A stretch of DNA of 32,410 nucleotides from Polyangiaceae bacterium. GTDB taxonomy: Bacteria > Myxococcota_A > Polyangia > Polyangiales > Polyangiaceae. The number at the start of each line of letters is the position of its first letter. The first letter of the stretch is position 1. Of the stretch, positions 14,255 through 30,991 are shown in pieces. A program made the position numbers and the translations under genes. The stretch is taken from NCBI GenBank assembly GCA_020848455.1, contig JADLAB010000164.1, forward strand, positions 1-32,410, given 5' to 3'. The notes below the pieces were generated by a model. It did not search any database. It saw nothing but the letters and a program-made list of their open reading frames with translations, and was not told where the DNA came from.

Positions 14255-14310
14255 ATGGGCGCGTCGCTTGGCGGTTGACGCGGACCGACGTCGAGGCGAG
14301 CCACTCGCTC

Positions 14311-15540
14311 GTGACGATCTCGAGCCCTCCCGGCGCGCGCGAGCGCCCCGTCGTCGTGAGCGTGGAGCAGGCGCTCGCGATGCCGTACGCCACGCGGCGC
14401 TTCGTCGAGCTCGGCTTCCGCGTCGTGCGCGTGGAAGCGCCCTCGGGGGCCGGTCGCGGCCACCCCGGGGATCCGAACCGCTACATCGGTCGACCGATGG
14501 CGGGGCCCGATCGGCGGAGCTACTTCGTCGCCCCGAACGCGGGCAAGGAGGCCGTGGTCATCGACCTCAAGCTGCAGGAGGGGCAGGCCCTCTTGCGGCG
14601 CATGGTCCATGCCCTCGGCGCGGACGTGTTCTGCACGAACACTCTGCCCGCGCGCCACGCCGCGCTCGGCCTCGGCTACGAGACGCTGAGCCGGGAGCGG
14701 CCCGAGCTCATCTGGTGCTCGGTGTCGGCGCTCGGGCCGGCGTACCCCGACGTGCCCGGCTACGACCCCATGCTGCAGGCCCTGTGCGGCTACATGGACC
14801 TCACGGGCAACCCGGACGGCCCGCCGCTGCTCTGCGGCGTGCCGCTCATCGACCTCAAGGCCGGCGACGAGGTGTTCGCCCAGGTGCTCTACGCGCTCTA
14901 CGAGCGCACGCGCACCGGACACGGCAAGCGCATCGACATCTCGATGGCCCAGGCGGCCGTGTCGTGGCTCGTGACCTTCCTGCCGCTGCTCGACATGGGG
15001 AGCCCGGCCGACGAGCTCCGGCGCAGCGGCAACGAGCACCGGAACTTCCTGCCGACGAACGCCTACCCGACCGCGGACGGCATGCTCTACATGGCGGTCG
15101 GCAGCGACGCGCAGTGGGCGCGCCTCGTCGCGCAGCCCCTGTTCCGCGAGGTCGCCGACCCGGCCGTGGCCACGAACGAGGGGCGGCGCGAGCGGCGCGC
15201 CGAGCTCTTCCGCGCGCTCTCGGCCATCACGTCCGCGCACTCGACCGAGGTGGTCGCGGCGGCGCTCCGGGCGGCCGGCGTGCCGAATGCGCCCGTCACG
15301 CCCATCGAGGGCGTGATGGAGCTGCCGTTCGTGGCGAGCGCGCTCCTCACGACGACGGCGCCCGGCGGCCAGACCGTGCGCCTGCCCCCGCCGGCGGTCG
15401 CGACCGAGTGGCTCGCCGAGCGCCACCAGGAGCTCGCCTTTGCGCCGGGCTACGGCGAGCACACGGACAGCGTGCTCGCCGAGATCGGCGTCGACGCCGC
15501 GGAGCGCGAGGATCTGCGGCGGCGCGGCGTCACGGGCTGA
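14311..15540 (+). CDS. Class III (CaiB/BaiF family) CoA-transferase
   Basis: A 409-residue enzyme of the formyl-CoA/carnitine CoA-transferase family, which moves CoA between carboxylic acids through an enzyme-bound mixed anhydride. Characteristic parts: VVRVEAPSG in the CoA-binding Rossmann part, FVAPNAGKEAVVIDLKLQEG (the usual 'N.gK.s..lDl...'), and PGYDPMLQALCGYMDLTG, whose Asp152 is the expected catalytic aspartate. GHGKRIDISMAQAAVSWL matches the family's 'G.GQ.vd.sl.ea' segment. The start is uncertain: GTG 14311 (GAGGCGAG about 11 bases upstream) gives the usual short N-terminus, while a TTG at 14275 would add 12 residues. It is convergent with the SDR-like gene; their stops share an inverted repeat. 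It may supply CoA thioesters to the oxidoreductase operon 3 kb downstream, but the genes are not contiguous. Confidence 0.9.
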   Translation: MTISSPPGARERPVVVSVEQALAMPYATRRFVELGFRVVRVEAPSGAGRGHPGDPNRYIGRPMAGPDRRSYFVAPNAGKEAVVIDLKLQEGQALLRRMVHALGADVFCTNTLPARHAALGLGYETLSRERPELIWCSVSALGPAYPDVPGYDPMLQALCGYMDLTGNPDGPPLLCGVPLIDLKAGDEVFAQVLYALYERTRTGHGKRIDISMAQAAVSWLVTFLPLLDMGSPADELRRSGNEHRNFLPTNAYPTADGMLYMAVGSDAQWARLVAQPLFREVADPAVATNEGRRERRAELFRALSAITSAHSTEVVAAALRAAGVPNAPVTPIEGVMELPFVASALLTTTAPGGQTVRLPPPAVATEWLAERHQELAFAPGYGEHTDSVLAEIGVDAAEREDLRRRGVTG

Positions 15541-16578: not shown

Positions 16579-18420
16579 ATGGCCATGCGCACTCGAGCTC
16601 TGCTTTCCACTGCGGTCGCGCTCGTCCTCGGCGCTTGCACGCTCTCCCGCTCCGGCACCGCTCCCGAGCCGGGCGCGGGCGGTGCGGGCGCCGGCCATCC
16701 CACGGGCGGTAGCGGCGCCGGGGCCACGGGCGGTACGGGCGGCGAGGCTCCGGCGTGCACCGTGCCCGGCGACTGCGGGCCGGACACCGACTGCGAGACG
16801 CCGACCTGCACCAACCAGACGTGCGGTGTCGTGCTCGCGACGCTCGGCACGGCGTGCGCCGACCAGGGCGGCGAGGTGTGCGACGGGGCGGGCTCCTGCC
16901 TGCTCGACCTCGGCTCCGGCTGCGCCGGCGCGGCGGAGTGCGCCGAGGGCTTCTGCGTCGAGCAGCGCTGCTGCGAGAACGCCTGCGGCGGCTTGTGTCG
17001 CAGCTGCGCCATCGTCGGGAGCGAGGGCAGCTGCGCCTTCGTGCCGGCGGCCGACAACCCCTCCTCCGAGTGCGGCGCCGGGGTGTGCGACGGCGCAGGC
17101 AGCTGCGCCGAGGGTGCGGCGCTGTGGAGCCGTGCCTGGGGCGACCCCGGCCTCGACGACGACCAGGGGTGGGCCGTCGCGTTCGACAGCCAGGGCAACG
17201 TGATCGTCGCCGGCACCTTCCAGGGCACCATCGATCTCGGCGGAGCGCAGCAGACCTCGGTCGGCACGGATCTGTTCGTCATCAAGCTCGACGGGCAGGG
17301 TGGGCTGCTCTGGTGGAAGGCCTACGCCTCGGTGGCCGGCGACCAGCGGGTCGACGGCATCGCCATCGGCACGGGCGACGCCATCTACCTCGCGGGGGAC
17401 TTCACGGGGTCGCTCGCGCTCGGCGGCGCGCTGCCGGCGCTCCCGTCCGCCGGCGGCTCCGACGTGTACGTCGCGAAGCTCGACGCCTCGGGCAACCCCC
17501 TCTGGGCCAAGGCCTTCGGCGACGCGAGCGACCAGAACGCCGGGGCCATCGCCCGCGACGCGAACGACAACGTGTACGTCGCGGGCTGGGCGATGGGGCA
17601 GATCACCTTCGCCGCGGGTGTGCCGCTCACGGCCGTCGGCCGGGACGCCTTCGTCGCGTCGCTCGAGCCCGACGGCGACACACGCTACGGGCGGCTCGTG
17701 GCCGGCACGGGCAACGCGAGCGGCTACGGCCTCGCGGTCGACGCGACCGGACGCGCCCTCGTCGTCGGCCCCTTCGACGGCTCGATCGACCTCGGCCCCG
17801 GGGGCCTCGCGACGGCGGACGGTGTCGACGCCTTCGCCGTCGTGCTCGACGCGGCGGGCGCGCTCGCGGCGGGCGCGCGTTACGGCGGCCCGGGCGAGCA
17901 GCTGGCGTTCGGCGCGACGGTCGCGTCCGACGGCTTCGTGGTGGTCGGCCGCTACGACACCGGCATCGACTTCGGCTTCGGGGGCGCGCCCGCGCTCCTC
18001 CCGGTCGCGCCCGGGACCGACGGCTTCGTCGCCAAGCTCGACGCCGCCCTCGGCGAGGTGTGGAGCCGCGACATCGGCTCGTCGGCCTACGACGACCTCT
18101 ACACGGTGGACGTCGACGTGAACGGCAACGTGCTCGTCGCGGGCGAGGCCGAGGGCGCGGTCGACTTCGCGGGCGTGACCATGCCCACGATCGGCGGCGG
18201 GGGCGACGTGCTGCTCTGCAAGCTGTCGGCCGACGGCACGCCGCTCTGGGGCAAGCTCATGGGCGGGGCGCTCGGCCAGGAGTGGGCGCACTCGGTGGCG
18301 ACCTCGCTCCAGGGCCGGGTGGCGGTCGTGGGGCCCTTCAACGGTGCCATCGACCTCGGCACCGGCAGCCTCGCGGTGGGCGGCGGTTACGACGCGTTCC
18401 TCGGCGTGTACGATCCCTGA
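16579..18420 (+). CDS. Lipoprotein with Cys-rich module and SBBP-type beta-propeller
   Basis: A 613-residue surface lipoprotein. The signal peptide ends in LGAC (Cys20), followed by a Gly/Ala/Thr-rich linker (about 30-56). A Cys-rich region (about 58-175, roughly 20 cysteines, including CAEGFCVEQRCCENACGG) comes next. The rest (about 180-613) consists of about eight blades of roughly 50 residues with the recurring pattern 'D-x-x-GN-V-x-VAG-x-F-x-G-x-x-x-x-G ... D-x-F-V-x-KLD-x-x-G-x-x-W', the SBBP/beta-propeller repeat. Such proteins are common on myxobacterial surfaces, with ligands unknown. A second ATG two codons in (16585) is an equally possible start. It ends 58 bases before the molybdenum hydroxylase operon; a GC-rich hairpin lies directly after its stop. 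Confidence 0.88.
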   Translation: MAMRTRALLSTAVALVLGACTLSRSGTAPEPGAGGAGAGHPTGGSGAGATGGTGGEAPACTVPGDCGPDTDCETPTCTNQTCGVVLATLGTACADQGGEVCDGAGSCLLDLGSGCAGAAECAEGFCVEQRCCENACGGLCRSCAIVGSEGSCAFVPAADNPSSECGAGVCDGAGSCAEGAALWSRAWGDPGLDDDQGWAVAFDSQGNVIVAGTFQGTIDLGGAQQTSVGTDLFVIKLDGQGGLLWWKAYASVAGDQRVDGIAIGTGDAIYLAGDFTGSLALGGALPALPSAGGSDVYVAKLDASGNPLWAKAFGDASDQNAGAIARDANDNVYVAGWAMGQITFAAGVPLTAVGRDAFVASLEPDGDTRYGRLVAGTGNASGYGLAVDATGRALVVGPFDGSIDLGPGGLATADGVDAFAVVLDAAGALAAGARYGGPGEQLAFGATVASDGFVVVGRYDTGIDFGFGGAPALLPVAPGTDGFVAKLDAALGEVWSRDIGSSAYDDLYTVDVDVNGNVLVAGEAEGAVDFAGVTMPTIGGGGDVLLCKLSADGTPLWGKLMGGALGQEWAHSVATSLQGRVAVVGPFNGAIDLGTGSLAVGGGYDAFLGVYDP

Positions 18421-18436
18421 GGCGCGGGCGCGCGCC
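18421..18436. terminator. GC-rich hairpin after the lipoprotein gene
   Basis: GGCGCG and CGCGCC arms with a GGCG loop begin at the base after the stop codon. It may end transcription of the lipoprotein gene and separate it from the operon starting at 18479. No T-tract follows, and stems this short arise often by chance at this GC content. Confidence 0.35.
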
Positions 18437-18478
18437 GCCCACCGGCTCGCGGCGAAACTCGACCCGGACGACGAGACG

Positions 18479-19318
18479 ATGCAGTACCACCGACCCACCA
18501 CCCTCGCGGAGGCGCTCCGCCTCGCCGCCGAGCCGGGGGCCCGCGTGCTCGCGGGCGGCACCGATCTCGTGCTTCGCATGCGCGATGGGCGCGAACGCCC
18601 GGACGCGCTCGTCTCGCTCGGCCGGGTGGCCGAGCTCGCGGGCGTCACGTTCGGTGCGGACCGCGTGCGCCTCGGCGCGCGCACGACGCTCGCCGAGCTC
18701 GTCGAGCACGAGGAGCTCGGCCGGCTCTTCCCGGCGCTCCTCGGGGCGGCGCGCGTGTTCGGCAGCATGCTCGTGCGCAACCTCGCCACGGTCGGCGGCA
18801 ACCTGTGCAACGCGTCACCCTGCTCCGACCTCGCGCCGCCGCTCATCGCCCTCGGCGCGCGCGTCGAGCTCGCGAGCCGCGAGGCGCGCCGCGAGCTGCC
18901 GCTCGGCGATTTCTTCGTCGGCCCGCGCGAGACACGGCTCGCGCCCGGCGAGCTCCTGACGGCCGTGGTCCTCGACCGACCGGGGCCCCGCGATCGCAGC
19001 GCGGTCCTGAAGCACACGCGCGTCACCGTCGACCTCGCGCTCGTGAACGTCGCGGTGGCGCTCGAGCTCGACCGCGGCAAGGTGGCGCGCGTGCGGGCGG
19101 TCGCGGGCGCGGTCGGGCCGACGCCGCTGCGCCTGCTCGGCGTCGAGGCGCTCGTCGCGGGCCAGGCGCTCGCGCCCGAGCTGCTCGCCGAGGCGGGCCG
19201 TCGGGCCGGTGCCGAGGTGAAGCCCATCAGCGACGTGCGGGCGTCGGCCGAGTACCGGCGCATGCTCACCGGGGTCCTGTGCCGGCGCGCGCTCGCGGCG
19301 GCGGCGGAGGTGTCATGA
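18479..19318 (+). CDS. Molybdenum hydroxylase FAD-binding subunit (CoxM/CutM/XdhB-like)
   Basis: A 279-residue medium subunit of a xanthine-oxidase-family enzyme. It passes electrons from the 2Fe-2S subunit to the external acceptor through FAD. FAD-binding signatures are VLAGGTDL (23-30) and TVGGNLCNASPCSDLAP (104-120), which contact the diphosphate and ribityl chain. The C-terminal part (about 170-275, VKPISDVRASAEYRRML) is the CO-dehydrogenase flavoprotein C-terminal domain. At 279 residues it is the size of CoxM and lacks the inserted 4Fe-4S loop found in 4-hydroxybenzoyl-CoA reductase beta subunits. The ATG at 18479 was chosen by homology of MQYHRPTTLAEAL. Its stop overlaps the next start as ATGA (19315-19318). 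First gene of the operon. Confidence 0.93.
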   Translation: MQYHRPTTLAEALRLAAEPGARVLAGGTDLVLRMRDGRERPDALVSLGRVAELAGVTFGADRVRLGARTTLAELVEHEELGRLFPALLGAARVFGSMLVRNLATVGGNLCNASPCSDLAPPLIALGARVELASREARRELPLGDFFVGPRETRLAPGELLTAVVLDRPGPRDRSAVLKHTRVTVDLALVNVAVALELDRGKVARVRAVAGAVGPTPLRLLGVEALVAGQALAPELLAEAGRRAGAEVKPISDVRASAEYRRMLTGVLCRRALAAAAEVS

Positions 19319-19854
19319 GCGCAGGCGCACAGGGCGGCGGGGCACCCGTCTCGCACGCCGCGGCAGACAAGGTCCGGGTGGCGTTCACGCTGAACGGCGC
19401 CCCCGTGGAGGTGCTGGCGGCGGCGACCGACCGGCTCATCGACGTCCTGCGGGGCGCGCTCGGCCTCGTCGGCACGCGCGAGGGCTGCGGCGCGGGCGAG
19501 TGCGGCTCGTGCACCGTCGAGGTCGACGGTCGCGCCGTGCCGAGCTGCATCTTGCCGGCCCGCGAGGCCGAGGGGCGCAGCATCACGACCATCGAGGGGC
19601 TCGGCGGGCCGGGCGGCGAGCTCGACCGGCTGCAGCGCGCGTTCGTCGAGCACGGCGGCGTGCAGTGCGGCTTCTGCACCCCGGGGATGGTCATGGCGGC
19701 GCGCGCGCTGCTCCGGCGCAACCCCCACCCGAGCCCGGCCGAGATCCGGACGGCGCTCGCCGGCAACCTGTGCCGCTGCACGGGCTACGTGCAGATCGTC
19801 GCGGCGGTCGACGCCGCGGGCCACGGCGCGGACGACGGAGGCGCGCATGGCTGA
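19315..19854 (+). CDS. Molybdenum hydroxylase 2Fe-2S subunit (CoxS/CutS-like)
   Basis: A 179-residue small subunit with two [2Fe-2S] clusters. The plant-ferredoxin-type cluster uses CGAGECGSC plus a fourth Cys (C58, C63, C66, C78), and the C-terminal four-helix cluster uses C118, C121, C153 and C155 (CGFC ... CRC followed by TGY). All eight ligands are present. Residues 1-17 are an extra Gly/Ala-rich stretch before the domain starts at VRVAFTLNG. The start ATG 19315 overlaps the stop of the FAD subunit, and its own stop overlaps the ATG of the large subunit by eight bases (19847-19854). The three genes are therefore translationally coupled in the order medium, small, large, as in the cox and many xdh-type operons. 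Confidence 0.95.
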   Translation: MSAGAQGGGAPVSHAAADKVRVAFTLNGAPVEVLAAATDRLIDVLRGALGLVGTREGCGAGECGSCTVEVDGRAVPSCILPAREAEGRSITTIEGLGGPGGELDRLQRAFVEHGGVQCGFCTPGMVMAARALLRRNPHPSPAEIRTALAGNLCRCTGYVQIVAAVDAAGHGADDGGAHG

Positions 19855-22312
19855 CGCGGGCTACATCGGCCGGCCGGTCCGGCGCCCCGACGCCGGCGAC
19901 AAGGTGAGCGGCCGCACCTACTACATCCACGATCTCGAGCGGCCGGGCATGCTGCACGGCAAGATCAAGTGGAGCGCCCACGCGCACGCGCGCGTGAAGC
20001 ACATCGACACCTCGCGGGCGCGCGCCTTGCCCGGCGTGCGCGCCGTCGTGACCGCCTACGACACCCCGGAGATCCGCATCGGCTTTCTGCGCGACAACTT
20101 CGCGCTCAAGCGCGACAAGGTGCGGCAGTTCCGGGACGAGGTCGCGGCCGTCGCCGCCATCGATCCGGACATCGCGGCCCGCGCGGTCGAGCTCATCGAC
20201 GTCGAGTACGAGCCGCTGCCCGGCGTCTTCTCGCCCGAGGAGGCCATGGCCCCGGGTGCGCCCCTCGTGCACGAGCGCGACGCGGCGGGCCAGGCGCTCG
20301 CCTCGAACGCCGTGCCCGTGCGCTACGGCCACCTGACCGGCGACCTCGCCGAGGGGCGTCGGCGGTCGCGCTTCGTCGCCGAGGGCAGCTACTCGACGCA
20401 GCTCGTGCAGCAGGCCTGCCTCGGCACCGCCGGCTGCATCGCCGAGCTCGACACGAGCGGCAACCTCACCATCTGGGCCAAGACCCAGATCCCCTTCCTC
20501 GCCCAGCGCGACTACCTGCGGGCGCTCGAGGCGCTCGGGCTCGGCGGTCGCAACGTGCGCGTCATCGTGCCGGCGCTCGGCGGGGCGTTCGGCACCGGGC
20601 TCGACACCCACGCCTACGAGTACATCGCGATCCTGCTCGCGCACCGGGCCGGCCGGCCGGTCAAGATGCTCTTCAGCCGCGAGGAGGAGTTCGCCTTTCT
20701 GTCGCCGCGCCAGTCGGCGCGCTTCCGCATCACGCAGGGCTGCGACGAGCGCGGCCTGCTCGTGTTCCGCGACATGCACGTCCTGCAGGACAACGGCGCC
20801 TACACGTCGTGGGGCGCGACCTACCCCACGGTCATGATGGTGCCGGCGACCTCGCTCTACCGCGTGCCGCACGTGCGCTTCGCGGCCGAGCTCTACTACA
20901 CCAACAACACCTACTGTCAGGCGATGCGCGGTTACGGCGGGCCCGAGGCGACCTGGGCCATCGAGAGCAACCTCGACGAGCTCGCCCGGGCCGCCGGCCT
21001 CGACCCGCTCGAGATGCGGCGCCTCAACGCCAACGTCTCGAACGAGACGACGCCGATGGGCCTGCGCGTGACGACCTGTGCCATGCGCGAGTGCCTCGAC
21101 AAGGCGGCGGCGCGCATCGGCTGGACCGAGCGGCGCGCGAGCGCGACCGCGACCCACGCCTCGGCCGAGTCCGCCGCCGGCGGCACCTGGCGCCGCGGCG
21201 TCGGCATGGCGGCACTCATGCACGTCGGCGGCTCGGGGCGCATCTACCGCTCCGACGGCGGCGGTGTCATCCTGAAGCTCGACGACTACGGCAACGTCAA
21301 CGTGACGACGGGCGGGGTCGAGATGGGGCAGGGGCATCACACGGCGCTGACGCAGGCGGTCTCCGACGCGCTCGGTGTGCGGCCCGAGCGGGTGCACGTG
21401 AACCCGACCGACACCGGGACCTCGCCCTGGGACGTCGGCACCCACGCGAGCCGCGGCGCGTTCATCGCGTGCAACGCTGCGATCCGGGCGGCGGCGAACG
21501 TGCGCCAGAAGCTCTTCGCGCTCGCGGCGGAGGTCTACCCGGCCGAGGTGAAGAAGAACCTCGAGGCCCTGAAGAAGAAGCGCCCGGGCGAGCCCGTGCC
21601 CGAGGTCGATCTCGCGGCGCTCGCGCGGCCCGAGCGCTTCGAGCTCCGCGACGGCATCCTGTTCGTGCGCGATCTCCCCGACGCGGCGCACCTCCGGGTG
21701 GAGCTCGGGCGGCTGCTCCGCGCCATCCACTTTCGCGGCGTGCGCGGCACGGTCGTCGTGGGCGAGGCCTTCTACGAGCCCCCGACCGATCTGCCCGACT
21801 GGGACAAGGGCCTCGGCAACCTGTCGGCCACGTACACGACCGGCGCGCAGGCGGTCGAGCTCGAGGTCGACGAGGAGACCGGGCAGGTGCGCATCCTCAA
21901 GCTCGTGGCGGTGCACGACGTCGGGCGGGTGCTCAACCCGCAGACGCTCGCGGGCCAGATGTACGGAGCGCTCGCGCAGGGCATCGGCTACGCGCTCTAC
22001 GAGGAGGTGCACGGCGCGGGCGGGCGCATCACGAACCCGAGCTTCCGCGACTACAAGATCCCGACGGCGGGCGAGATGGGCTTTCCCATCGAGCTCGAGC
22101 TCGTCGAGACCGACGACGAGGCAGGGCCCTTCGGGGCCAAGGGTGCCGGCGAGCCCGGGCTCATCCCGACCGCGGCGGCGATCGCCAACGCCATCTACGA
22201 CGCGGTCGGCGTGCGCTTGCGCGATCTGCCGCTCACGGCCGAGCGCATCGCGCTCGCCGTCGCCCGGGCCCGGCGCGCCGAGGGCGAGGACAGCGCGGAC
22301 GAAAGGACCTAG
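19847..22312 (+). CDS. Molybdenum hydroxylase large, molybdopterin-binding subunit (CoxL/HcrA/XdhA-like)
   Basis: An 821-residue catalytic subunit. It binds the Mo-pterin cofactor and would hydroxylate (or reductively dehydroxylate) an aromatic, heterocyclic or aldehyde-type substrate. Cofactor motifs: ALGGAFGTGLD (243-253), AMRGYGGPE (359-367; R361 is the usual position of the conserved arginine), GGVEMGQGHH, and GAKGAGEPG near the C-terminus with E769 at the position of the base-catalytic glutamate. The CO-dehydrogenase-specific active-site Cys loop (VAYRCSFR) is not present; the equivalent segment reads YCQAMRGYGG, so it is not a true form I CO dehydrogenase. The substrate cannot be assigned; the adjacent CoA-linked genes favour a CoA thioester or its acid. 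The stop is followed three bases later by the thiolase ATG. Confidence 0.94.
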   Translation: MADAGYIGRPVRRPDAGDKVSGRTYYIHDLERPGMLHGKIKWSAHAHARVKHIDTSRARALPGVRAVVTAYDTPEIRIGFLRDNFALKRDKVRQFRDEVAAVAAIDPDIAARAVELIDVEYEPLPGVFSPEEAMAPGAPLVHERDAAGQALASNAVPVRYGHLTGDLAEGRRRSRFVAEGSYSTQLVQQACLGTAGCIAELDTSGNLTIWAKTQIPFLAQRDYLRALEALGLGGRNVRVIVPALGGAFGTGLDTHAYEYIAILLAHRAGRPVKMLFSREEEFAFLSPRQSARFRITQGCDERGLLVFRDMHVLQDNGAYTSWGATYPTVMMVPATSLYRVPHVRFAAELYYTNNTYCQAMRGYGGPEATWAIESNLDELARAAGLDPLEMRRLNANVSNETTPMGLRVTTCAMRECLDKAAARIGWTERRASATATHASAESAAGGTWRRGVGMAALMHVGGSGRIYRSDGGGVILKLDDYGNVNVTTGGVEMGQGHHTALTQAVSDALGVRPERVHVNPTDTGTSPWDVGTHASRGAFIACNAAIRAAANVRQKLFALAAEVYPAEVKKNLEALKKKRPGEPVPEVDLAALARPERFELRDGILFVRDLPDAAHLRVELGRLLRAIHFRGVRGTVVVGEAFYEPPTDLPDWDKGLGNLSATYTTGAQAVELEVDEETGQVRILKLVAVHDVGRVLNPQTLAGQMYGALAQGIGYALYEEVHGAGGRITNPSFRDYKIPTAGEMGFPIELELVETDDEAGPFGAKGAGEPGLIPTAAAIANAIYDAVGVRLRDLPLTAERIALAVARARRAEGEDSADERT

Positions 22313-22315
22313 GAC

Positions 22316-23509
22316 ATGCCCCTCGAGCGAACCTTCATCCCCTATGGCGCCTACTGGTCCACGCCCTTCTGCCGCTGGCAGGGCGGGCTCGGAGGCTTCC
22401 ACGCCCTCGAGCTCGCGGCGCGCGCCGGCCGGGCCTTCTTCGCGGCGCAGAAGCTCGGCGTCGAGGCCTTCGACGGGGTCGCGCTCGGCACGACGGTGCC
22501 GCAGCGCCACGCCTTCTACGGCGCGCCCTGGGTCGCGGCCATGCTCGGCATGCCGGGCGTGACCGGGCCGACGATCGCGCAGGCGTGCGCCACCTCCGCG
22601 GCCGTGCTCGCGCACGCCGCGCTCGAGGTCGAGGCGGGGGTGCGTGAGTGCGTGCTCGCCGTCACCGCGGATCGCACCAGCAACGGCCCGCACCTCTACT
22701 ACCCGAACCCGCGCGGCCCCGGCGGCCGCGGCGACGCCGAGGACTGGGTCTGGGACAACTTCAACCGCGACCCGTGGGGCGAGGTCGCGATGGTGCAGAC
22801 GGCCGAGAACGTGGGCAAGCAGGCCGGCATCGGGCGCAAGGAGCAGGAGGAGATGTGCCTCCTGCGCCACGCGCAGTACGCCGACGCGCTCGCCAACGAG
22901 CGCGCCTTCCAGCGCCGCTACCTCGTGCCGGTCGCGCTCGACGCGAAGCGGAGCGGCAGCGCCGCGGTCGAGCTCGACGACGGCGTGCGGACCCTCACGG
23001 CCGCGGACCTCGCGGCGCAGAAGCCGGTGCTGCGCGACGGCACCGTGACGTCGGGCACGCAGACCTTCCCGGGCGACGGCAACGCGGGCATCGTCGTGAC
23101 GACGGCCGAGCGCGCGCGCTCGCTCGCCCGCGACCCCGCGGTGACGGTCGCCCTGCGGGCCTTCGCCGACGCGCGCGTCGACAAGGCGCACATGCCCGCG
23201 GCGACGGTGCCGGCGGCGCGCCGCGTGCTCGAGCGCGCCGGGCTCGGCCTCGCCGAGCTCCGCGCCATCAAGACGCACAACCCCTTTGCCCTCAACGACG
23301 TCTACTTCTGCAAGCAGCTCGGCCTGGCGCCCGAGCGCGTGAACCGCTTCGGCTCGTCGCTCGTCTACGGGCATCCCCAGGCGCCGACCGGCGCGCGCGC
23401 GGTCATGGAGCTCATCGAGGAGCTCGTCCTCGCGGGTGGCGGGCACGGCCTGTTCGCCGGCTGCGCCGCGGGCGACACCGCCATGGCGCTCGTCCTCACG
23501 GTGCGCTGA
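22316..23509 (+). CDS. Thiolase family acyl-CoA acyltransferase
   Basis: A 397-residue thiolase. It cleaves a 3-oxoacyl-CoA with CoA, or runs the reverse condensation. The nucleophilic Cys91 is in IAQACATSAAVL, the activating His353 is in GSSLVYGHPQAPTGAR, and the second-acid/base Cys383 is in LFAGCAAGDTAMALVL. All three catalytic residues are present. The NEAFA motif of biosynthetic thiolases is replaced by KTHNPFALND, closer to the SCP2/peroxisomal-type branch. ATG 22316 lies three bases after the previous stop, and AAAGGA upstream acts as ribosome site. The following gene starts one base after its stop. Its place between the Mo hydroxylase and the 2-oxoacid oxidoreductase argues that the pathway proceeds through CoA thioesters. 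Confidence 0.93.
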   Translation: MPLERTFIPYGAYWSTPFCRWQGGLGGFHALELAARAGRAFFAAQKLGVEAFDGVALGTTVPQRHAFYGAPWVAAMLGMPGVTGPTIAQACATSAAVLAHAALEVEAGVRECVLAVTADRTSNGPHLYYPNPRGPGGRGDAEDWVWDNFNRDPWGEVAMVQTAENVGKQAGIGRKEQEEMCLLRHAQYADALANERAFQRRYLVPVALDAKRSGSAAVELDDGVRTLTAADLAAQKPVLRDGTVTSGTQTFPGDGNAGIVVTTAERARSLARDPAVTVALRAFADARVDKAHMPAATVPAARRVLERAGLGLAELRAIKTHNPFALNDVYFCKQLGLAPERVNRFGSSLVYGHPQAPTGARAVMELIEELVLAGGGHGLFAGCAAGDTAMALVLTVR

Positions 23510-23510
23510 G

Positions 23511-26500
23511 GTGGATCCCGCGCTCGCCGCTGCGGCCGGTGGCCCGACGCTGCTCCTGCTCGGGAACGAGGCCATCGTGCGCGGTGCGCTCGAGGCGCGC
23601 GTGGCGCACGTCTCGGGCTACCCGGGCACGCCGGCGACCGAGATCGGCGACACCTTCGCGCGCATCCGGGCGGTCCACCGGGCGGCGGCGCCGGACGCCT
23701 TTCGAGCCAGCGAGACGGGCAGCGCCGCGGGCTTCTCCTTCGAGTGGTCGATCAACGAGAAGATCGCCCTCGAGGTGGCCTACGGCGCGAGCCTCGCGGG
23801 CGTGCGCTCGCTCGTCGCGATGAAGCACCTCGGCCTGCTCTACGCGGGCGACCCGCTCTCGACCATGCCGTACATCGGCGTGGTCGGCGGCATGGTGATC
23901 GTCTCGGCCTCGGACCCGGGCTGCCACACCTCGCCGAACGAGCAGGATCAGCGCCACCTCGCGCGCATGCTCGGCCTGCCGACCCTCGACCCGTCGACGC
24001 CCGAGGAGGCGCGCGTCATGACGCGCTTCGCCTTCGAGCTGTCCGAGGCCGCGGAGCTGCCGGTGCTCGTGCGCATCGCGGCGCGCGTCGCGCACGCCTG
24101 CGGCCAGGTCGAGACCGAGGCCTTCGTGCCGGCGCGGCCGGCCGCGCGCTTCGTGCGCCAGCCCACGCGCTTCATCCCCGTGCCCATGCACGCCCGGCGG
24201 CTGCGCGCGCGGCTCGAGGAGCGGCTCGTGGTCGCGGGCGAGCGCATCGCCGAGTCGGGCTGCGTCGTGCGCCACGATCGGCCGGGCTCGCGCGGCAACG
24301 GCGCGGCGCGGAGCGGCCCGCGGCGCGGCGTCGTCACGAGCGGCGCGCCCCACGTCGTCGCGGTCGACGGCCTGGCGGCGCTCGGCATCGGCGACGAGGT
24401 ACCGTGGCTGCGCGTCGGCGCGCTGCATCCCTTGCCCGAGCGCGCGCTCGTCGAGTTCGCGCGCGAGCTCGACGAGGTGCTCGTCATCGAGGACCTCACG
24501 CCCTTCCTCGAGGACGCGCTCGCGGCGGCCCTGCAGCGCCACGGGCTCGCGGTGCGCATCCTCGGCAAGCGCTCGGGCACCTTGCCGTGGGCCGGCGAGC
24601 TCGGGCCCGAGCTGCTCGTGCCGGCGCTCGGCACGTTCCTCGGAATCGGCGCGGAGCGCGCGCGCGAGGTGGCCAGCGGGGCGCAGCCCGGGCCGGTGGC
24701 GCCGCCGCGCCCGCCGTCGCTGTGTCCGGGCTGTCCCCACACCTCGACCTTCGTCGCGGTGCGGCGCGCCTTCGGCGGCGACACCGTCTACGTGAGCGAC
24801 ATCGGCTGCTACACGCTCGGCTTCCAGCCGCCTCACGAGGTCGGCGACGTCATCCTCGCCATGGGCTCGAGCCTGCCCATCGCCTCGGGCATCGCGCGCG
24901 CCACGGGGCGGCGGGCGGTCGCCTTCATGGGCGACAGCACCTTCTTCCACTCGGGGCTGCCGGCGCTCGCGAACGCCGTCGAGCACGACGCGAACGTCGT
25001 CCTCGTCGTGATGGACAACCAGGCGACGGCGATGACGGGCCAGCAGACCTCGCCCACCTCGCCCCACGATCACGCGGGCGAGACACGCCCGCACATGTCG
25101 ATTCTCGAGGCGGTGCGCGGGCTCGGCGTCTCGCAGGTCGAGGTGGTCGATCCCTTCGAGCTCGCCACGACCGTCGGCGCGCTCGGCCGCGCGCGCGACG
25201 CCCGTGGGCCCGCCGTGGTCATCGCGGAGCGCGCGTGCCCCTACTACGGCGCGACGCCGGCCCGCCCCAAGGCCCTCGCGCCGCACGTCGACGCCGAGCA
25301 CTGCCACAGCTGCGGCATGCGGCGGGCCGGCCTCGACTGCGGCCTCGGCGAGTCCGCGGCCTGGGACCGCACCCTGTACGGCACGCGCGCCGAGAACCGC
25401 GCCCTCGTCGACCAGCTGCTCGGCGGGCCCGTGGCGGTCGCGCCCTGCGCCGAGGCCTGCCCGCTCGGCATCTGCGTGCAGGCCTACGTCGGCAGCATCG
25501 CGAGCGGGAGCCCGAAGGAGGCCCTCTCCGCCGTGACGGCGCGCGCCGCGCTGCCCTCGATCTGCAGCCACATCTGCCACCGCCCCTGCGAGGACGCGTG
25601 CGTGCGCCACGCCGTCGACATGCCCATCGCCATCAACGAGCTCAAGCGCCACCTCACGGACGGCGCGGGCCTCGTCGTCGAGCACCCGCCGTGCGCGCCC
25701 ATCGCGCCGGGCTCGCGGCCCGTGGCCATCGTGGGCGCCGGGCCGGCCGGGCTCGCGGCGGCGCGCGAGCTCCGGCGCCGCGGCCACTCGGTCGTCCTCT
25801 ACGACGCGGCCGCGCGGGCCGGCGGCGCGCTCCGCCTCATCCCCGAGTATCGCCTGCCGCGCGCCGTCCTCGAGCGCGACCTCGAGGCCCTGTTCGCGCT
25901 CGGCGGCATCGAGCTCCGCGGCGGGGTGCGCGTCGGCACCGACGTCTCGCTGGCCGAGCTCCGCGCCCAGGGCTTCGCGGCGATCTTGCTCGCGACCGGC
26001 GCCGGGCGCGCGTGGTTGCCCGAGGTCGCACGACGGCCGGACGACGCGGTCGGCGACGCGCTCGCGTTCCTCGCGGAGGATCCGGCGCCGCTCTCGGGGC
26101 CCGTCGTCGTGGTGGGCGGCGGCGACGTCGCCGTCGACGCCGCGCGCGTCGCCGTGCGGCGCGGTGCCGCGGTGACGCTCTCTGCGCTCGAGCGCGCCGG
26201 CGAGCTGCCGGCCGACCCCGGTGCCGTCGCGAGCGCGGAGCGCGAGGGGGTCGCCGTGCGCACCGGCCTCGGTGTCCTCGGTCTCGAGCGCCGCGGTGGC
26301 GAGCTCGTCGTCCGCCTAGCGCCGGTCCTCGGCCTCACGGCCGGCCCGGAGGGCGGTCTCGTGCCCGAGCTCGGCGCCGAGGTCGAGGAGCTCCATGCCG
26401 CGCGCGTGCTCTTTGCGACCGGGCAGCGCCCGGACGACACGGGTCTCGAGCTCGGCGCGCTGGCGCGCCGGAGCGGGGGCTGGCTCGTCGGCGACGACTG

Positions 26501-26972
26501 CGGGCGCACGGCCGAGCCCGACCTCTTCGTGGCGGGCGACGTCGCGCTCGGCGCCGCCAACGTCACGCGCGCGATGGCCTCGGGTGTGCGGGCCGCCTAC
26601 GCCATCGACCGGGCGGTCCGCGGCGACGCGGTCGAGCCTCCCACGGCACCCCGCGACGCCCCGCGCGCCCACGGCCCGCGCCGGCACGCGCGCGCGGCCG
26701 CGAGCGAGGGCGGCCCCCCGCTCGGGCCCGAGGCGGCCATGGCCGAGGCGGCCCGTTGCCTGCTCTGCGCCGAGTGCGGCCGCTGTGACGCCTGCGTGCG
26801 CGTCGTCGGCTGCCCCGCCTTCGTGCGCACGAGCGGGCACGCCAACGACATCGACGCGGCGCTGTGCATCGCGTGCGGCTACTGCGTGTCGCACTGCCCC
26901 AACGAGGCGGTGATCGGGCTCGACGGCCCCCCGCTCGCGCTCGGCGCGCGGGGCCCAGCGGCGGCGCCATGA
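23511..26972 (+). CDS. Fusion: indolepyruvate-type 2-oxoacid oxidoreductase alpha chain + GltD-like FAD/NAD(P)H module + ferredoxin domain
   Basis: A 1153-residue multidomain enzyme. Residues about 12-400 are the IorA pyrimidine-binding domains (VSGYPGTPATEIGDTF from 34; ETGSAAGFSFEWS from 68). Residues 400-620 are the TPP-diphosphate domain (CPGCPH 405-410, MGDSTFFHSGLPALANAV 473-490, MDNQATAMTG 501-510). Residues 646-715 are a GltD/Fer4_20 domain (C646, C650, C655, C685, C689, C693, C697). Residues 735-1040 are an FAD/NAD(P)-binding module with VAIVGAGPAGLAAARELRRR (738-757), second dinucleotide motif VVVVGGGDVAVDAA (865-878) and FVAGDVALGAANVTRAM (1006-1022). Residues 1083-1135 are the C-terminal 2x[4Fe-4S] ferredoxin normally found at the end of IorA (CGRCDACVRVVGCPA; CIACGYCVSHCP). 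It should decarboxylate a 2-oxoacid to an acyl-CoA and pass the electrons to NAD(P). The start is GTG 23511, one base after the thiolase stop; its stop overlaps the iorB-like start as ATGA. Confidence 0.92.
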   Translation: MDPALAAAAGGPTLLLLGNEAIVRGALEARVAHVSGYPGTPATEIGDTFARIRAVHRAAAPDAFRASETGSAAGFSFEWSINEKIALEVAYGASLAGVRSLVAMKHLGLLYAGDPLSTMPYIGVVGGMVIVSASDPGCHTSPNEQDQRHLARMLGLPTLDPSTPEEARVMTRFAFELSEAAELPVLVRIAARVAHACGQVETEAFVPARPAARFVRQPTRFIPVPMHARRLRARLEERLVVAGERIAESGCVVRHDRPGSRGNGAARSGPRRGVVTSGAPHVVAVDGLAALGIGDEVPWLRVGALHPLPERALVEFARELDEVLVIEDLTPFLEDALAAALQRHGLAVRILGKRSGTLPWAGELGPELLVPALGTFLGIGAERAREVASGAQPGPVAPPRPPSLCPGCPHTSTFVAVRRAFGGDTVYVSDIGCYTLGFQPPHEVGDVILAMGSSLPIASGIARATGRRAVAFMGDSTFFHSGLPALANAVEHDANVVLVVMDNQATAMTGQQTSPTSPHDHAGETRPHMSILEAVRGLGVSQVEVVDPFELATTVGALGRARDARGPAVVIAERACPYYGATPARPKALAPHVDAEHCHSCGMRRAGLDCGLGESAAWDRTLYGTRAENRALVDQLLGGPVAVAPCAEACPLGICVQAYVGSIASGSPKEALSAVTARAALPSICSHICHRPCEDACVRHAVDMPIAINELKRHLTDGAGLVVEHPPCAPIAPGSRPVAIVGAGPAGLAAARELRRRGHSVVLYDAAARAGGALRLIPEYRLPRAVLERDLEALFALGGIELRGGVRVGTDVSLAELRAQGFAAILLATGAGRAWLPEVARRPDDAVGDALAFLAEDPAPLSGPVVVVGGGDVAVDAARVAVRRGAAVTLSALERAGELPADPGAVASAEREGVAVRTGLGVLGLERRGGELVVRLAPVLGLTAGPEGGLVPELGAEVEELHAARVLFATGQRPDDTGLELGALARRSGGWLVGDDCGRTAEPDLFVAGDVALGAANVTRAMASGVRAAYAIDRAVRGDAVEPPTAPRDAPRAHGPRRHARAAASEGGPPLGPEAAMAEAARCLLCAECGRCDACVRVVGCPAFVRTSGHANDIDAALCIACGYCVSHCPNEAVIGLDGPPLALGARGPAAAP

Positions 26973-27634
26973 TCGAGCGAGGGGGAGGCACCGGCGTGCG
27001 CGAGCCTCACGCGGCCGAGGGCGGGCCCGCGGCGCGCACCGAGACGCGCGTCTGCATCGTCATCGCGGGCGTCGGCGGGCAGGGCGTCATCACCGCGGCG
27101 CGGCTCCTCGCGCGGGCGGCGCACGCCGAGGGCGCACGCGTCGTGGCCGGCCAGATGCACGGCATGTCGCAGCGCGGAGGGTCCGTCGTCGCGACCGTGG
27201 TCGTGGGTGGCGCGAGCTCGATCGTGCCCGCGGGCACGGCAGACGTGCTCCTCGCCACCGAGCCCTCCGAGGCCCTGCGCGCGCTCGGGCAGCTCCGCCG
27301 GGGCGGGCTCGCCATCGTCAGCACGCGTCCGAGCGTGCCGCCTTCGCTGCGGGCGGGCCGCACCGCCTATCCCGACGGTGGCGCGATCTTGGGCGCGCTC
27401 GCGGCGCAGGCCGGCGCCGTCGTCGCCTTCGACGGCGCGGCGCTCGCGCTCGAGGCCGGCTCGCCGCAGGTCCTCAACGTGGTCATGCTCGGCGCGCTCG
27501 CAGGCTCGGGGCGCGCGCCGGTCGGTGCGGCCGCGCTCCTCACGGCCATCGAGGCGACCGGCCGCGGTGCCGTCGTGGCGGTGAACCGGCGCGCCTTCGA
27601 GCTCGGCCGGGCGCAGGCGGTGCGGGGCGGCTGA
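26969..27634 (+). CDS. iorB: Indolepyruvate oxidoreductase beta subunit (IorB-like)
   Basis: A 221-residue PFOR gamma-type domain that completes the TPP-dependent 2-oxoacid oxidoreductase begun in the upstream fusion gene. After an extra N-terminal tail (1-26) the Rossmann motif GVGGQGVITAARLLARAA (34-51) and the family signature MHGMSQRGGSVVATV (63-77) are clear. The C-terminal half, PQVLNVVMLGALAGSG onwards, fits IorB. In archaeal and bacterial IorAB the beta chain supplies the CoA-binding part, so the alpha fusion and this protein should form one complex. ATG 26969 overlaps the stop of the alpha fusion (ATGA), the last such overlap in the operon. It is followed by a 146-base gap and an unrelated protease gene, so it is probably the end of the operon. 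Confidence 0.93.
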   Translation: MIERGGGTGVREPHAAEGGPAARTETRVCIVIAGVGGQGVITAARLLARAAHAEGARVVAGQMHGMSQRGGSVVATVVVGGASSIVPAGTADVLLATEPSEALRALGQLRRGGLAIVSTRPSVPPSLRAGRTAYPDGGAILGALAAQAGAVVAFDGAALALEAGSPQVLNVVMLGALAGSGRAPVGAAALLTAIEATGRGAVVAVNRRAFELGRAQAVRGG

Positions 27635-30299: not shown

Positions 30300-30318
30300 A
30301 GCGCCGGATTGTGGCGCT
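30300..30318. terminator. Hairpin between hemG and the lipid kinase gene
   Basis: AGCGCC (30300-30305) and GGCGCT (30313-30318) form a perfect 6-bp stem around a 7-base loop. The stem just touches the hemG stop codon. It could reduce read-through into the downstream lipid kinase gene or stabilise the 3' end of hemG mRNA. Confidence 0.35.
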
Positions 30319-30887
30319 CAGGCGGCCCGCCGGCCCTCGCCTCGCTCCGCGACGAGCTTGTCGACCTCGTGCGCGAAGGCCTCGACCGCCTCCCAGTCGG
30401 TCAGGACGTGGTCGCGCGAGGTGTCGGTCGGCCCGCCGCCACGCCACGCGATGGCGCGCATCACGAGCCGCAGCGGCAAGGGATAGCGCGTGTAGGCGAG
30501 CTCCCCGCCGAAGAGGGCCGTCAGCGCGGGCTTCCAGCCGCTGCGGGCGAAGCGGGCGTCGACGAGCCGGCGCACCGAGTCGCGGAGCGCGGCGTCCTTC
30601 GACGCGGCGCTCAGGCTCACCGAGAAGAACGCGGTCGGCCGCGCCTCGAGCTCCTTTCTGTGGCGGCGGATGAAGCGCCCGAGCTCGGGCGGGTGATGGC
30701 GCAGGTACATCGACCCGCCGAGCACCACGGCGTCGAGCGACGCGACGTCGAGCTCCGGCCGGAACAGCACCGGGCAGCGGACCACGCGCACGTCATGCCC
30801 GCCCTCGCGCAACGGGTGCGCGATGCGCTCGGCGATCTTCCCCGCATGTCCGTGTCGTGTCGCATACAGAACGCCGATCGTCGCCAT
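30318..30887 (-). CDS. hemG: HemG-type (flavodoxin-fold) protoporphyrinogen oxidase
   Basis: A 189-residue flavodoxin-domain protein. HemG oxidises protoporphyrinogen IX to protoporphyrin IX, using FMN and passing electrons to the quinone pool. The FMN phosphate loop is LYATRHGHAGKIAERIA (7-23). DAVVLGGSMYLRHHPPELGRFIRRH carries the second FMN loop. FFSVSLSAASKDA, WKPALTALFGGELAYTRYPLPLRLVMRAIAW and GGPTDTSRDHVLTDWEAVEAFAHEV follow the HemG pattern closely, including the long C-terminal insert that separates HemG from ordinary flavodoxins. The start is secure: ATG 30887 has GGAGG 7 bases upstream; an in-frame ATG at 30917 would add ten residues before the first strand. It is divergent from the ydfG-like gene with a 104-base spacer. 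HemG is classically gammaproteobacterial, so its presence here is noteworthy. Confidence 0.9.
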   Translation of the reverse strand: MATIGVLYATRHGHAGKIAERIAHPLREGGHDVRVVRCPVLFRPELDVASLDAVVLGGSMYLRHHPPELGRFIRRHRKELEARPTAFFSVSLSAASKDAALRDSVRRLVDARFARSGWKPALTALFGGELAYTRYPLPLRLVMRAIAWRGGGPTDTSRDHVLTDWEAVEAFAHEVDKLVAERGEGRRAA

Positions 30888-30991
30888 CTCCAACCTCCGA
30901 GCGCGCGGCGCAGGCAAGGCCCGTGCCGGCGCGGCCGAGCGCGCCCTCGAACGTTCTCGACGTCGCCGAGGAGCCGCCCTACGGCAACGCC

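Follow-up and report, generated by a model that had tools for sequence, protein, structure and literature searches.

A GltD-type diaphorase module nested in the ferredoxin domain of an IorA-type chain: a probable NAD+-linked indolepyruvate dehydrogenase of uncultivated bacteria

Introduction

Phenylglyoxylate:NAD+ oxidoreductase (Pad) converts a 2-oxoacid to an acyl-CoA with NAD+, and it does so with separate subunits. Here we describe a chain in which comparable functions appear to be fused. It is encoded at 23511-26972 on the + strand of a 32,410-nucleotide stretch of DNA from a Polyangiaceae bacterium (assembly GCA_020848455.1, contig JADLAB010000164.1; hereafter the window), and it combines the catalytic half of IorA with a GltD-type module. 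With the adjoining IorB, this chain is likely, judging from sequence, to form an NAD(P)+-reducing, CoA-acylating indolepyruvate dehydrogenase, with NAD+ as the probable acceptor.

Indoleacetate is the plant hormone auxin, and its breakdown by the iaa pathway of Aromatoleum includes a Mo hydroxylase step and a thiolase. The pathway leads from indoleacetate to 2-aminobenzoyl-CoA (PMC9613470, PMC8360864, PMC8453981). IaaCE is a hydantoinase-like hydrolase that has been proposed to open 2-oxoindoleacetate (PMC8453981), and IaaF enzymes are marked by a GGG in place of the YEG of other acyl-CoA dehydrogenases (PMC8360864). For a related two-gene enzyme, the product formed in vitro was consistent with indoleacetyl-CoA (PMC13290082).

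GltD modules have been described within larger multi-Fe-S chains. In StnC of the StnABC complex, three Cys and one Lys (K170) bind the flavin-proximal cluster, and C114 lies close to it; the module is reported to be non-bifurcating, with linear electron transfer over cluster distances of 9-18 A (PMC10482914). NfnL instead has a Glu ligand at its flavin-proximal cluster (PMC9503767; roles also in PMC10482914).

Domain layout and site of insertion

The chain is a single open reading frame (ORF) of 1153 residues with a GTG start. GC content by codon position, taken over the longer ORF from 23436, is 0.79/0.57/0.96, as in coding frames, and the gene is conserved in relatives. Residues 11-581 (23541-25253; this and the following features are all on the + strand) form an IorA catalytic half with POR_N and TPP (thiamine pyrophosphate)-binding domains (TIGR03336, PF01855, PF02775), TPP_enzyme_C lying at residues 430-571. 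TIGR03336, the IorA model, matches residues 15-603 with 569.4 bits (E 7.5e-171, profile positions 4-557 of 595), which is below its equivalog cut-off of 650.9 bits. POR_N and TPP_C lie within one chain with IorB adjoining, as in IorA. A GltD N-terminal Fe-S domain (PF14691, Fer4_20) follows at residues 644-718 (25440-25664), with C646, C650, C655, C689, C693, C697 and K712. Behind it comes an FAD/NAD(P)-binding module at residues 738-1025 (25722-26585; PF07992, Pyr_redox_2), which carries the FAD motif GAGPAG (25734-25751) and the nucleotide motif GGGDVA (26115-26132) with an acidic ALE after it. The chain closes with a two-cluster ferredoxin containing ten Cys, residues 1083-1134 (26757-26912), in which Fer4 (Pfam) matches residues 1114-1134.

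Compared with IorAB (TIGR03336/TIGR03334), the locus has the same catalytic half, TPP domain, IorB partner and second half of the C-terminal ferredoxin; it differs in a GltD module of ~470 residues that breaks the first ferredoxin motif, and in its score. The PRK12771 GltD-like model (NF009410) matches residues 643-1134 with 287 bits against a cut-off of 516. Like proteins of the PRK12771 type, the module has Fer4_20, FAD and NAD(P) folds and an RCxxCxxC leader before the ferredoxin. Unlike them, it is not free-standing, its second ferredoxin half is IorA-type, and an acidic motif takes the place of YRR.

An AlphaFold2 model of the chain (64 sequences) had a mean pLDDT of 84.9 and a pTM of 0.71. 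Its residues 11 to ~390 align with PFOR and other 2-oxoacid oxidoreductases (Z ~30-33), and residues 639-1133 align with NfnA of Nfn-ABC (Z 33.6, 426 residues, root mean square deviation 2.5); by fold, the nearest solved relatives of the GltD module are in the Nfn and Stn complexes. StnC and NfnA share with the window chain a GltD module in a larger multi-Fe-S chain and a Lys and a Cys at the flavin-proximal site, but their other parts are NuoG/FdhF-like and belong to bifurcating complexes, whereas the remainder of the window chain is a TPP enzyme. An earlier note on this DNA had suggested that a single polypeptide carries sites for TPP, several Fe-S clusters, FAD and a pyridine nucleotide, and the domain searches support these predicted sites on one chain.

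Where, then, does the module sit? In alignments, the canonical IorA ferredoxin starts with a motif resembling [VI]DQEQCNACSLCVRVLGCPAI. In the fused chains, VDxxRCxxCG (C598, C601) precedes the GltD module and CVRVVGCPAF (from C1095) follows it, while the stretch ahead of C1095, EAxRCLxCxxCxxC, is a GltD-type tail. For the half after C1095, a canonical IorA profile beat a stand-alone PRK12771 profile in 33/33 chains of clade A and 27/27 of clade B (the two clades of fused chains, described below). The window chain scored 31.2 versus 21.1 bits for this half and 32.3 versus 30.4 bits, a tie, for the whole C-terminal ferredoxin domain; the profile sets were small (14 canonical IorA, 10 stand-alone), and these bit values are rough, though their direction is consistent. 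Hence, C1083, C1086, C1089 and C1092 are GltD-type and C1095 to C1129 are IorA-type, and by alignment and profile the C-terminal ferredoxin is of mixed origin, changing from one type to the other between C1092 and C1095. Because the start of the motif precedes the module, the IorA-type half follows it and the cysteines just before that half are GltD-type, we conclude from the alignments that the GltD module is nested within the first cysteine motif of the IorA ferredoxin.

These results refine the earlier note, which had placed a GltD insert between the TPP domain and an intact ferredoxin. The insert is real, but it lies inside the first Cys motif of the ferredoxin. The expected return of IorA-type ferredoxin motifs at the C terminus holds for C1095-C1129, but C1083 and C1086 behave as GltD ligands. 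Ownership of the C-terminal cysteines by the GltD module, which the note had named as evidence against its reading, thus applies to one part of the domain only; that they are wholly GltD-type is ruled out by the post-junction profile test, the whole-domain test being a tie for the window.

The displaced start of the motif survives as an orphan CxxCG-x8-C (C598, C601, C610; 25302-25340), identified as a remnant by alignment with canonical IorA. It is invariant in 59/59 fused rows of the alignment, although the ferredoxin has replacement cysteines, and it might hold an additional metal centre. In some chains a fourth Cys lies close to this motif.

Cluster ligands and nucleotide site

We tabulated cysteines across 64 aligned chains, made up of 59 fused rows (34 clade A, 25 clade B) and canonical rows. 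C405, C408, C433 and C576 (spanning 24723-25238) are invariant in all 64, canonical rows included. They are probably the ligands of a TPP-proximal [4Fe-4S] cluster, a site that we take to be equivalent to the proximal cluster of PFOR. C650, C655, C689 and C693 occur in 59/59 fused rows. C646, C697, C1083 and C1086 behave differently: all four are found in 34/34 clade A rows and in 0/25 clade B rows. Because of this all-or-none distribution, we read the four as a single unit of gain or loss in the alignment, the behaviour expected of ligands that share one cluster. At the flavin-proximal cluster the alignment places a Lys (K712, nearly invariant) and a Cys (C655); the position of the NfnL-type Glu ligand is thus occupied by Lys.

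An acidic residue at the position of YRR, after the second Rossmann strand, usually indicates NAD(H). YRR is present in 9/10 stand-alone relatives and in the solved NADP(H)-type modules in our alignments. C[ILVF]E replaces it in 25/25 clade B rows, as does an acidic motif in 22 of the 34 clade A rows, the window chain reading ALE. From this acidic motif we infer that the acceptor of the window enzyme is probably NAD+ rather than NADP+.

Distribution of the fusion

The fused order is kept in a relative of the same genus (96% identity) and in four further genomes of the family (48-50%). A genome_contigs scan kept 80 loci, including contigs of family relatives (four fused loci). The homologues with the same domain order that the earlier note had proposed to look for were found in 59 of these 80 loci as well as in the family relatives; they represent at least nine phyla by record title, and IorB adjoins in most. 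The taxon names are titles of metagenome-assembled genomes, among which mis-binned contigs are possible. Recurrence in independent genomes rules out an assembly chimera.

Two clades are apparent. In clade A (32 loci) the C-terminal ferredoxin of the fused chain has ten cysteines; the clade is found in Myxococcota, Planctomycetota, Acidobacteriota, Gemmatimonadota, an acidimicrobial actinobacterium and a gammaproteobacterium. Clade B (27 loci) has an eight-cysteine ferredoxin and is mostly from Bacteroidota, with members in KSB1, Armatimonadota, a desulfobacterium and gammaproteobacteria. Canonical IorA accounts for 14 of the kept loci. In a tree of the TPP part, the canonical rows fall between clades A and B on long branches; in a tree of the GltD modules, those of clades A and B group together (support 93). 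The two trees are compatible with either one or two origins of the insert. No description of the fusion was found in open-licence literature, which is weak evidence of absence.

Perhaps the fused form marks aerobes? Genes of the haem-copper oxidase family (PF00115, which also takes in NO reductases) were present in 31/34 fused hosts and 12/14 canonical hosts, and in 6/6 Polyangia-type genomes searched, each with a fused gene. These counts do not tell fused and canonical genomes apart, and we rejected this idea.

The window genome also encodes a 762-residue ORF (L130:3869-6154; G000 contig C534) that joins a POR gamma domain to a PRK12771-type GltD module. Its domains suggest that the genome has another NAD(P)-linked 2-oxoacid oxidoreductase, one that is built differently.

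The iaa-type gene context

Mapping by tblastn placed fused and canonical genes alike in clusters with IorB, a hydantoinase/caprolactamase-like pair, an acyl-CoA dehydrogenase, a B12-binding protein, an acyl-CoA mutase, a CoA transferase and a xanthine dehydrogenase (XDH)-like Mo hydroxylase, with occasional thiolase, FadB-like and aminotransferase genes. This context, absent from the earlier note, names the likely reaction. A complete iaa-type gene order, all genes together, is present at locus L152. Where at least 6 kb of flank is available, 46/66 loci have at least three of nine iaa-type genes (18/29 clade A, 21/26 clade B, 7/11 canonical), compared with 0/5 generic IorA loci of the same order, a small control in which two contigs are short. 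In the window genome the set is split over two contigs: the window carries part of it, and the genes for the hydantoinase pair, the acyl-CoA dehydrogenase, B12 binding and the mutase are grouped on contig C235. GGG replaces YEG in 43/43 cluster acyl-CoA dehydrogenases (41 distinct), that of the window genome included.

Like the Aromatoleum pathway, these clusters have the hydantoinase-like pair, CoA transferase, B12 mutase and GGG acyl-CoA dehydrogenase. The entry differs: in Aromatoleum the ligase IaaB first converts indoleacetate to indoleacetyl-CoA, whereas here that ester apparently arises directly by the oxidation of indolepyruvate. Indolepyruvate would come from the aminotransferases encoded beside several clusters.

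Further genes lie in or near individual clusters. A PALP-family (pyridoxal-phosphate dependent) gene lies between XdhA and XdhB in some clade B clusters (L098:16238-17113, also L109 and L114). A RidA-like (Endoribonuclease L-PSP) gene directly precedes the fused gene in a cluster that is among those closest to the window enzyme (L042:8532-8945). A second, inverted IorA-IorB pair stands beside the canonical IorA of one iaa-type cluster (L116:5175-7534), and a Sec-dependent nitrous oxide reductase (NosZ) gene is located near a clade B cluster (L090:18795-20774).

Proposed reaction and alternatives

We propose that the chain and IorB catalyze indolepyruvate + CoA + NAD(P)+ -> indoleacetyl-CoA + CO2 + NAD(P)H. 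Decarboxylation would take place on TPP, and electrons would pass one by one from the TPP-proximal cluster to the two clusters of the ferredoxin domain. They would then reach two [4Fe-4S] clusters of the GltD module, the distal one held by C646, C697, C1083 and C1086 and the proximal one by C650, C689 and C693 with K712 and C655. FAD would collect the electrons and pass a hydride to NAD(P)+, probably NAD+. Tryptophan-derived indolepyruvate would thereby enter the iaa-type pathway directly as a CoA ester and proceed towards 2-aminobenzoyl-CoA through the Mo hydroxylase, hydantoinase, CoA transferase, B12 mutase, decarboxylating acyl-CoA dehydrogenase and thiolase. Domains, nucleotide motif and neighbourhood together support as probable the NAD(P)-dependent dehydrogenase that the earlier note had envisaged, and these bacteria probably run indolepyruvate oxidation straight onto NAD, not ferredoxin.

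Several points weigh against this proposal. The substrate assignment rests on gene neighbourhood, and 11/29 clade A loci are without three iaa genes in the DNA fetched. Clusters of the same type are also found with canonical IorA, which lacks the insert; hence, the pathway does not require the insert, and the oxidase distribution supplies no reason for it. We infer the electron path from TPP to the GltD module, and the pTM of the model is only 0.71. Finally, nucleotide preference probably varies within clade A, because 12/34 clade A rows keep YRR.

Might the enzyme act on a different aryl 2-oxoacid, such as phenylpyruvate, 4-hydroxyphenylpyruvate or imidazolepyruvate, with neighbours from a related N-heterocycle pathway? 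Several aryl pyruvates are substrates of IorA-type enzymes. One study also found no motif predictive of indolepyruvate use (PMC13290082). However, the full iaa set, with an IaaF-type GGG dehydrogenase in every cluster tested, fits indoleacetyl-CoA best, and we regard another substrate as unlikely. Free ferredoxin might still be used, with GltD as an auxiliary NAD(P)H:ferredoxin branch, or the reaction might run in reverse as a reductive carboxylation of indoleacetyl-CoA: the GltD-type module of StnC can oxidise NADPH (PMC10482914), and isolated NfnL reduces NADP+ from ferredoxin (PMC9503767). Against this, the neighbours are catabolic and lead away from indoleacetyl-CoA, and the neighbouring aminotransferases would provide the substrate of the forward reaction. 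Reductive carboxylation driven by NADH is, moreover, uphill. This arrangement seems quite improbable to us.

The earlier note had also raised electron bifurcation, in which FAD would serve two acceptors, and the nearest folds of the module do come from the Nfn and Stn complexes. The suggestion was not borne out. A Pfam scan confined to the window neighbours revealed no NfnS-, StnAB-, ETF-like or other second-acceptor partner, and the chain has a StnC-type Lys where NfnL has Glu, the StnC module being reported as non-bifurcating; bifurcation is disfavoured because of both. Oxidation of a 2-oxoacid onto NAD+ is, besides, already downhill and needs no coupling. We consider bifurcation very improbable.

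Returning to the NAD+-linked indolepyruvate dehydrogenase, we lean towards the broader view that the fused chains are a widespread, apparently undescribed class, in which a GltD diaphorase nested in the ferredoxin of a TPP subunit would make a self-contained NAD+-dependent dehydrogenase for tryptophan/indoleacetate breakdown, in two lineages one Fe-S cluster apart. If this is true, a ferredoxin-dependent, typically anaerobic reaction has been rewired to NAD+ by one redox module nested in another. Canonical, clade A and clade B forms would serve one pathway, and clade B, without the ligands of exactly one cluster, would be a natural experiment. Many uncultivated bacteria, spread over several phyla and mostly equipped with haem-copper oxidase genes, would also have an iaa-type indoleacetate/tryptophan pathway.

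Gene neighbourhood in the window

The fused gene is the fifth of a tight six-gene run on the + strand: XdhB, XdhC, XdhA, thiolase, fusion chain and IorB. The Mo hydroxylase would consist of an XdhB-like FAD subunit (18344-19318), an XdhC-like 2Fe-2S subunit (~19315-19854; by translation and tblastn, 39% to the XdhC of L090, its start at 19315 taken from an ATGA overlap) and a large subunit like XdhA or 4-hydroxybenzoyl-CoA reductase alpha (19847-22312). The thiolase (22316-23509; PF00108/PF02803), a homologue of which closes the L152 cluster, is a candidate for the last step, and the GTG of the fusion chain begins one base beyond its stop. IorB (26969-27634; POR gamma domain, PF01558 115 bits, IOR_beta 163 bits) starts with an ATG that overlaps the fusion-chain stop (ATGA). 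The PadE model gave 27.6 bits on this IorB against a cut-off of 300, which does not indicate a Pad-type gamma subunit.

A plasmid search gave no match. Upstream of the run, at a distance, lies a CoA-transferase family III gene (14275-15540, +; PF02515), an IaaL-type candidate whose homologue adjoins the B12 mutase in many clusters. Downstream of IorB, a Flavodoxin_5 gene occupies 30318-30917 on the - strand.

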